From Nitrososphaerales archaeon (GTDB lineage: Archaea > Thermoproteota > Nitrososphaeria > Nitrososphaerales > Nitrososphaeraceae), in contig JARBAU010000012.1 in assembly GCA_029237525.1 (NCBI GenBank), positions 1 to 44,119 of the forward strand: a DNA stretch of 44,119 bases, written 5' to 3'. The notes beneath the pieces are model-generated. The model made no database searches. It was given only the letters and a program-made list of their open reading frames with translations, and was not told the origin of the DNA. This document shows, one piece after another, positions 37,823 through 40,484 of this stretch (within the stretch, counting starts at the first letter, position 1; each line of letters opens with the position of its first letter). The position numbers were made by a program, and so were the translations under genes.

Positions 37823-39520
37823 ATGGCAACTGAATTAAGGGTTCATCCTTCTTTTTTTAGAGAATTTGCTACCAAGACGTGGGTTTCTCCAAATGAAATT
37901 GCTAAAGAGCTAATTGAAAATGCTTTTGATGAAGATGCTACAAAGGTCCTACTTACAGTCTTGACCAATGGATCAGTGATCATTGAGGATGATGCAGGTA
38001 TGAATAGCGCATCTATGGAAAAATTTTTGCTTTTAGGTTCTCCACACAAAAAGTATGACCATATATCACCAAAATTCAAGAGGCTTAGAACTGGTCGGTA
38101 TGGAACAGGTCGATTGTCTTTCCTGACGTCATTCGACAAGATGAAAATCAGTACCAAACTCGATGACTTCATAAAATCGATAGAAATAGACGCTAATACA
38201 CTTGACAAATTGTACTCTGGCAATGTTGTTTTGGATGAAGTAAGTGGATCTCCACTAAAAAGAAATGGTACTGAGATTTTACTAAACAATCCAAAGGTTT
38301 CAATAGATAGTAATAAATTAATAAAAGAAATAAGAAAGCTAGCGATTCTTCGACACCCAATGTTCGAGGTCTTTTTTAAGATTTCTGAACAATTTAATGA
38401 ATGGAACTTCGAAAAGGCTCAGCTTGTCAGGCCCCCTGAAATTCAAGGGCACAGGATTCCAGTAAACCTAGAGAACGGCAAGATTGTTGGCGAAATCGTT
38501 ATTGCAAAAAGACCCTTGACAGAGGACGAAAGAGGGATAGGCATAATGATTGGAAGTCATATTGTAACTAGAAGCCACTTTGGTTTCGAAACAAAGCTGA
38601 ATCGTATGTCTGGATATATAAGATCTGATTCTCTTACCTCTAGATTTGCAGATAAATCGGCCTTGATAGAGGACAGCGAATATTTCAAATTCATGACGAT
38701 TATGAAATCGTTTATCGAATCTACTGTCTTGCCTAGCCTAAGTCAATACGAGGATGTATTGATTACACGCGAAGAATCTAGAATATACAGGGAAATTGAC
38801 AAAGTACTTGGACAGGCTTTGGTCGAAAGCTCGGAAACACAAGAAGAGATCCAAGAGTTAAGTACGGTTGATGTTACCGAATTGGTTGACTCAAACGTAT
38901 CGACTAGTCAAATGAGTGGTTCAGGTAGACAAAGTTACACGAGTTTGAATGAATTGATACCGAGCAGAGATTCAAACATTGCTTTCGAACAATCCTCGGC
39001 CGAACTAGATCAACGGAAAGCAGCTGACTCGGCAAGTACATCTAGTGACGACGAAAAATATCAGCCTCAACCTGTAAGTTCAACAACAATACCGGAAGAA
39101 AATGGTAGCCTGCCCGCAGTTATAAACAGTGATAGACTATACGGAATTGGAACTCAAGATCGGCGTACGAGCAGTAGATTCGGCGATACCTCGCTGACGA
39201 CCAGGAAGATTCGAACGCCAGTTGTCAAAAGAACCTTCGCTTTGAAAAAGGTCGGCTACAAAGTCATTCCTTATGAAGATGGAAGTGATTCGAGGTATAG
39301 CTTTACGAGTGAAAATGTAGTATTTGTAAATAAGGCGAATTCTACCTATAGGGCAGAAGCTGGTAGGGGCGATGAATTCTTACTAAGACATATTATAAAT
39401 ATGGTAGCTGAAGCGGTAGCACAAGCTAAACATCCGGAGGGTAAGGATGCTTTAGAATTACAAAATCGTTTGATAGCTGAAGCAATAAGAATCCACGATG
39501 GTTCCACATCTAAAAAATAA
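37823..39520 (+). CDS. GHKL (HATPase/MORC-like) ATPase with conserved C-terminal domain
   Basis: This 565-aa protein has a GHKL ATPase at its N-terminus. The N-box is KELIENAFDEDA (29-39), with the Mg-binding Asn. DDAGM (56-60) is motif I. GRYGTGRLS (91-99) is the lid/second motif. A transducer-like stretch (KRPLTEDERGIGIMIGSH) runs to about residue 290. A Ser/Asp-rich disordered linker follows (335-450), then a C-domain, GYKVIPYEDGSDSRYSFTSE to RGDEFLLRHIINMVAEAVAQ. This plan suits gyrase/Hsp90/MutL/MORC relatives. The next gene encodes a proteasome beta subunit. Confidence 0.7.
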   Translation: MATELRVHPSFFREFATKTWVSPNEIAKELIENAFDEDATKVLLTVLTNGSVIIEDDAGMNSASMEKFLLLGSPHKKYDHISPKFKRLRTGRYGTGRLSFLTSFDKMKISTKLDDFIKSIEIDANTLDKLYSGNVVLDEVSGSPLKRNGTEILLNNPKVSIDSNKLIKEIRKLAILRHPMFEVFFKISEQFNEWNFEKAQLVRPPEIQGHRIPVNLENGKIVGEIVIAKRPLTEDERGIGIMIGSHIVTRSHFGFETKLNRMSGYIRSDSLTSRFADKSALIEDSEYFKFMTIMKSFIESTVLPSLSQYEDVLITREESRIYREIDKVLGQALVESSETQEEIQELSTVDVTELVDSNVSTSQMSGSGRQSYTSLNELIPSRDSNIAFEQSSAELDQRKAADSASTSSDDEKYQPQPVSSTTIPEENGSLPAVINSDRLYGIGTQDRRTSSRFGDTSLTTRKIRTPVVKRTFALKKVGYKVIPYEDGSDSRYSFTSENVVFVNKANSTYRAEAGRGDEFLLRHIINMVAEAVAQAKHPEGKDALELQNRLIAEAIRIHDGSTSKK

Positions 39521-39692: not shown

Positions 39693-40289
39693 ATGGCGTT
39701 TCAATTTATGCCTGGTGCAACTGCAGTAGGGATTACCTTTTCAGAGGGTGTTGTACTGGCGGCTGAAAAGCGTGTATCATACGGAAATTTTGTAATAAAC
39801 AAGAATACAAAGAAAACGTTCACTGTTACGGATTTTGTCGGAGCCGCATGTGCGGGTATGATTGCGGATATGCAAGTTTTAGTGAGACAGGTTGGGGCAT
39901 TGGCGAAAATAAGGAAACTGGAGACTCGCCGTAATGTAGCCCCTAATTCAATTGCAAAATTAATGTCTGTGATAATGTTTGAGCGTAGATTTTTTCCCTT
40001 ATTGACCCAAGTGATTGTTGGCGGGATAATAGACAAACCCAAAATTTATACTTTAGACCCCGTTGGTTCAGTCCTCCCTGATGATTATGCTGCGGTAGGC
40101 ACTGGAGCTGAAATGGCATTGGGGGTATTAGATTCAGAATATAAAAATGAAATGTCTCGGGAACAAGCTCGTGAGCTTGCTATCAAGGCTATAAAATCAT
40201 CTATTCAACGAGACTCCGCCAGTGGTGATGGATTGGATGTTCTTATCACTACTTCTAGCGGGCACACTGATGAGACCATGAGTTTCTAA
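39693..40289 (+). CDS. psmB: Proteasome beta subunit, Thr1 replaced by Ala (probably inactive)
   Basis: This 198-aa protein aligns across its length with archaeal 20S beta subunits: a short propeptide ending in PG, then ATAVGITFSEGVVLAAEKRV, where active subunits read G/TTTVGI. Catalytic Thr1 is therefore Ala (residue 9), whereas Glu17, Lys33 (in NKNTKK) and the DSASG motif remain. Without the N-terminal Thr it cannot form the acyl intermediate. In Crenarchaeota paired beta subunits with one inactive partner are known, so a second active subunit is likely elsewhere. Confidence 0.85.
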   Translation: MAFQFMPGATAVGITFSEGVVLAAEKRVSYGNFVINKNTKKTFTVTDFVGAACAGMIADMQVLVRQVGALAKIRKLETRRNVAPNSIAKLMSVIMFERRFFPLLTQVIVGGIIDKPKIYTLDPVGSVLPDDYAAVGTGAEMALGVLDSEYKNEMSREQARELAIKAIKSSIQRDSASGDGLDVLITTSSGHTDETMSF

Positions 40290-40376: not shown

Positions 40377-40484
40377 ATGTCCGAACCTACAAATGAGGAC
40401 GTGGAAGAATTTGATGACGATTTTGATGAAGAATTAGATGAAGAAATCGGTAGTGGACCAGACAGTACGAATGATGACGGATAG
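40377..40484 (+). CDS. 35-aa acidic microprotein
   Basis: An ATG at 40377 opens a protein of extreme acidity: MSEPTNEDVEEFDDDFDEEL, followed by DEEIGSGPDSTNDDG. ATAATTAA lies about 31 bp upstream, a good leaderless spacing. It begins 88 bp after the proteasome beta subunit on the same strand. Short acidic frames can occur by chance, but the TATA box and clean start make it credible. Its role is unknown. Confidence 0.5.
   Translation: MSEPTNEDVEEFDDDFDEELDEEIGSGPDSTNDDG

Follow-up and report, generated by a model that had tools for sequence, protein, structure and literature searches.

Archaeal proteasomes are usually said to have 14 identical active sites. The DNA analyzed here, a 44,119-nucleotide stretch from a Nitrososphaeraceae archaeon (the window), contains a proteasome beta gene with alanine at the position of the catalytic residue, Thr1. 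The locus raises the question of what such a subunit does in its host.

The psmB-type open reading frame is at positions 39693-40286 of the + strand, with the stop codon extending to 40289. It encodes a proteasome beta subunit of 198 amino acids. The translation starts MAFQFMPGATAVGITFSEGVVLAAEKRVSYGNF..., and an eight-residue leader, MAFQFMPG (39693-39716), is followed by ATAVGITFSEGVVLAAEKR. No longer leader is possible, as the frame is open for just two codons further upstream. Residues were numbered by an ungapped count against the Thermoplasma beta subunit (1pma). The register is Ala1, Thr2, Ala3, Glu17, Lys33, Thr129, Ala131, Asp166 and Ser169, with no insertion or deletion between Ala1 and Asp166. 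The codon GCA at 39717-39719 encodes Ala at the catalytic Thr1 position, in agreement with the alignment and the orthologues. Glu17 (39765-39767), Lys33 (39813-39815) and Asp166 (40212-40214) are retained in the alignment. The original prediction had described a propeptide ending in PG and followed by ATAVGI, with Ala in place of Thr1 and with Glu17 and Lys33 remaining. The translation and the 1pma count agree with this reading, and both retained residues are in register with Ala1. The alignment leaves no room for a Thr at the processing site, and the original prediction survives this check. A one-residue shift that would make Thr2 the true nucleophile was rejected, with Glu17, Lys33 and Asp166 all in register with Ala as residue 1. 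Where the motif in other lineages is PGTAIG or PGTTVG, this count assigns Gly to position 1.

The protein scores 170.4 bits against the PF00227 proteasome profile, above the curated cutoff of 22.4. It matches the full length of TIGR03634, the archaeal proteasome beta equivalog, with 218.4 bits, below the cutoff of 224. A Thr1 beta from the same genome (L001) scores 223.1 bits and likewise falls below 224, so the shortfall of the window beta is not due to Ala1. The window beta lacks the defining feature of a catalytic beta, a Thr1 nucleophile exposed by autolysis, and has Ala1 instead. It departs from active subunits at two additional positions, with Ala3 and with Ala131 rather than Ser. In active subunits, residue 3 is Thr or Ile (PMC4792962). 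AlphaFold, run with 25 orthologues, gave a model with a pLDDT of 86.6 and a pTM of 0.86, in which the first five leader residues had low confidence. The best Foldseek match in the PDB was 6z46, with TM scores of 0.86/0.93 and 43% identity. This entry, titled "Structure of the S. acidocaldarius 20S proteasome (Saci0613/Saci0662)," was also the top PDB entry by sequence search. The window beta is thus predicted to fold as a normal beta subunit.

The assembly contained 3.7 Mb in 400 contigs and was 94% complete. It encodes five PF00227 genes: L002, L001, the window gene and a tandem pair on contig C239. L002 is a canonical alpha with the N-terminal signature. L001 (C177:8480-9136) is a separate Thr1 beta that reads KKG/TTTCAL. 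It is the second psmB with Thr1 that the original prediction had proposed to look for, and its presence excludes the possibility that the window gene is the only beta. It contains Thr1, Thr3, Asp17, Lys33, Ser129 and Ser131. L001 is a Saci0909-type catalytic beta and has PF00227 and the overall fold in common with the window beta, but the latter has Ala1, Ala3, Glu17, Thr129 and Ala131 at the corresponding positions.

A PF00227 search found proteasome genes in 61 of 61 relatives. Orthologues fetched from every sampled family of the order read PGATAVG or PGATVVG. In a sample across the phylum, all 161 genomes had matches, mostly exactly three family members each. Three of these genomes (G072, G150 and G203) had two proteasome-family genes each, and no close Thr1 beta was found in them. 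This is likely an assembly gap, as they are draft assemblies. Among 95 orthologues sampled across the phylum, position 1 was Ala in 89, Gly in 6 and Thr in none. It was Thr in all 96 other betas, 29 of which were labeled beta' for the tree; one of the 29, L202, is an ordinary Thr1 beta whose short leader matched the label. Lys33 and Asp166 were each present in 95/95 orthologues, and Ser169 was kept in all but one. The leader ended in Gly at position -1 in 88/95 and had Pro at -2 in 74/95. Retention of Lys33, Asp166 and Ser169 without the nucleophile makes some selected use of the cleft possible.

Could the alanine be a sequencing or assembly error, or mark a decaying pseudogene? GCA (Ala) is one base from ACA (Thr), and the assembly is in 400 contigs. 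The frame is intact, however, and the protein is 77 to 82% identical to five aligned family members. Each of the 80 named relatives in the genome collection reads PG/AT, and Ala is present in every orthologue of the order. We see next to no chance that this explanation is correct. The 80 relatives argue against sequencing error, and by these comparisons Ala1 is an old, fixed state.

A maximum-likelihood tree of 171 betas was built with a quick method and rooted at the midpoint, with a single Thermoplasma sequence from outside the phylum. A branch with an SH-aLRT of 99 separated all Ala1 and Gly1 proteins from all Thr1 and beta' proteins. The non-Thr1 clade contained 78 rows. Over the stretch compared, one of the proteins within it, L174, has 2 differences from the Saci0662 chain in 6z46. 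By its placement in the tree, the window beta is orthologous to Saci0662 of Sulfolobus acidocaldarius. All Ala1 and Gly1 proteins are in one clade, so the midpoint-rooted tree is most simply read as placing the loss of Thr1 before the radiation of the phylum.

The Sulfolobus subunits have been studied in vitro. Truncated Saci0662 and alpha form a 28-mer without activity (PMC4569737). Saci0909 alone does not bind alpha. Alpha, Saci0662 and Saci0909 combined yield an active particle that contains less Saci0909 than Saci0662 (PMC4569737). The authors assigned an equivalent threonine to both S. acidocaldarius betas (PMC4569737). In the present register, that of Saci0662 is Thr2, with Ala before it; L174 reads LPATAIG. 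The solved Saci0662 chain (6z46) aligned from Thr2 as the second residue. The truncated construct appears to start at Thr2, without the Ala, and the geometry of Ala1 with its leader may never yet have been seen in a structure. Literature searches retrieved no study of Nitrososphaeria subunits.

The window beta has the features of a Saci0662-type subunit: it lacks Thr1, is in the Saci0662 clade, has the beta fold, and occurs in a genome with a Thr1 catalytic paralogue and an alpha. Both proteins have Ala-Thr at positions 1 and 2 after a short leader and keep Glu17, Lys33, Asp166 and Ser169. They are about 43 to 46% identical. The leader is MAFQFMPG in the window beta and ends in EELP in Saci0662, and position 129 is Thr in the former and Ser in the latter. 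None of the genes adjacent to the window beta was found beside the Sulfolobus gene. Non-catalytic eukaryotic betas such as yeast beta7 are likewise inert ring members next to catalytic ones, but there are seven kinds of beta in eukaryotes and two in the archaeal ring. The structural Sulfolobus subunit is reported to be closest to yeast beta7 (PMC4569737).

The gene at 39693-40289 is very probably that of a non-catalytic, structural beta subunit (psmB, Saci0662 type) of the main 20S proteasome of this Nitrososphaeraceae archaeon. The assignment to type draws on PF00227, the 6z46 match and the tree, and no observation spoke against it. The structural reading is based on the observed Ala1, the predicted fold, the partners, the universal presence and the orthology to Saci0662. 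With the Thr1 nucleophile replaced by Ala, the subunit would not cut its own leader and would not hydrolyze peptides. The leader is predicted to be uncleaved by autolysis, and we infer that it is retained. In yeast, T1A subunits are inactive, their autolysis is blocked, and propeptide remnants are retained (PMC4792962). Most likely, the Ala1 beta makes up the greater part of the inner ring and is in contact with the alpha ring. Thr1 betas (C177, L001) would be interspersed in the ring and would supply the peptidase activity. Co-assembly, the ring-building role and a low ratio of catalytic subunits are suggested by orthology to Saci0662. The original prediction had proposed an inactive subunit with a structural role, dependent on an active partner as it is in Crenarchaeota. 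The Thr1 beta and the alpha in this genome and the orthology to Saci0662 bear this out.

Alpha and the Ala1 beta might instead form a separate dead particle that holds proteins in the manner of a chaperone or lowers proteasome activity by competition. Saci0662 and alpha alone do assemble in vitro into a 28-mer that is stable but inert (PMC4569737; structure 6z46). However, the catalytic Saci0909 does not bind alpha by itself and is incorporated only when Saci0662 is present (PMC4569737). Across most of the phylum sample, each genome also carries the two betas as single copies, which suits a single mixed particle. We regard a separate particle as very unlikely. It is still harder to credit that the Ala1 beta is a partner of the divergent alpha'/beta' pair on C239 rather than a part of the main proteasome. 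The pair and the Ala1 beta are both in this genome, but the pair is absent from many members of the order that have the Ala1 beta, for example G037, G042, G047 and most f9 genomes. In the wider phylum, the Ala1 beta occurs with only an alpha and a Thr1 beta. An exclusive role with the pair is ruled out by the genomes that have the Ala1 beta but lack the pair. The original prediction had offered service in another assembly as its second option, and this found no support, as the Ala1 beta is also in relatives without a second alpha/beta pair.

The tandem beta'/alpha' genes are at C239:2379-3681 (L004:1480-2782) and encode a divergent second proteasome pair. The beta' begins MTTIVG, with Thr1 directly after Met, and is leaderless if that ATG is the start. 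In the N-terminal region of the alpha', YPYYYGPEGRL replaces the usual YDRAITVFSPDGRL, and it has no PF10584 match. The pair is patchy across the order (relatives L056-L058, L069, L111-L140 and L218-L220). A MarR/ArsR-like winged-helix gene is near the pair in most loci. The pair may be a second, regulated proteasome.

The catalytic partner of the Ala1 beta is itself altered in the order sampled. It has Asn166 in 30/30 tree rows, and both Asn166 and Thr169 in all 26 order rows counted in the alignment, where the standard residues are Asp and Ser. The inert beta of the order keeps Asp166 and Ser169. Outside the order, Asn166 was found in three further rows (L181, L184 and L196). In yeast beta5, D166N lowers activity by about 60% (PMC4792962). 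The two betas of the order look like complementary halves. The nucleophile-free cleft might accommodate the uncleaved P-G leader or part of a substrate and tune the neighboring altered site, and activity would then need the mixed ring. We consider this idea improbable.

The gene directly upstream of the window beta (37823-39520) encodes a 565-residue protein with an HATPase_c_3 (HSP90/GyrB-like ATPase) domain. A 35-codon, strongly acidic open reading frame, MSEPTNEDVEEFDDDFDEELDEE..., is just downstream (40377-40484). All 4 family members tested keep the HATPase-beta gene order, which was absent from the 12 other genomes compared. A conserved operon was therefore rejected as a clue to function. 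A plasmid search retrieved haloarchaeal records only, at 30 to 34% identity among the matches listed.

The window beta is an already known non-catalytic beta type of this phylum and otherwise an expected housekeeping gene. Its host is a soil ammonia-oxidizing archaeon whose proteasome probably combines a working beta with a catalytically dead one. The mixed ring of active and inactive betas, biochemically shown in Sulfolobus, would extend to ammonia-oxidizing archaea. The tree would most simply take it back to the ancestor of the whole sampled phylum. Dead members in the inner rings would then be the rule for the archaea of this phylum, and the usual statement about identical sites would be qualified.
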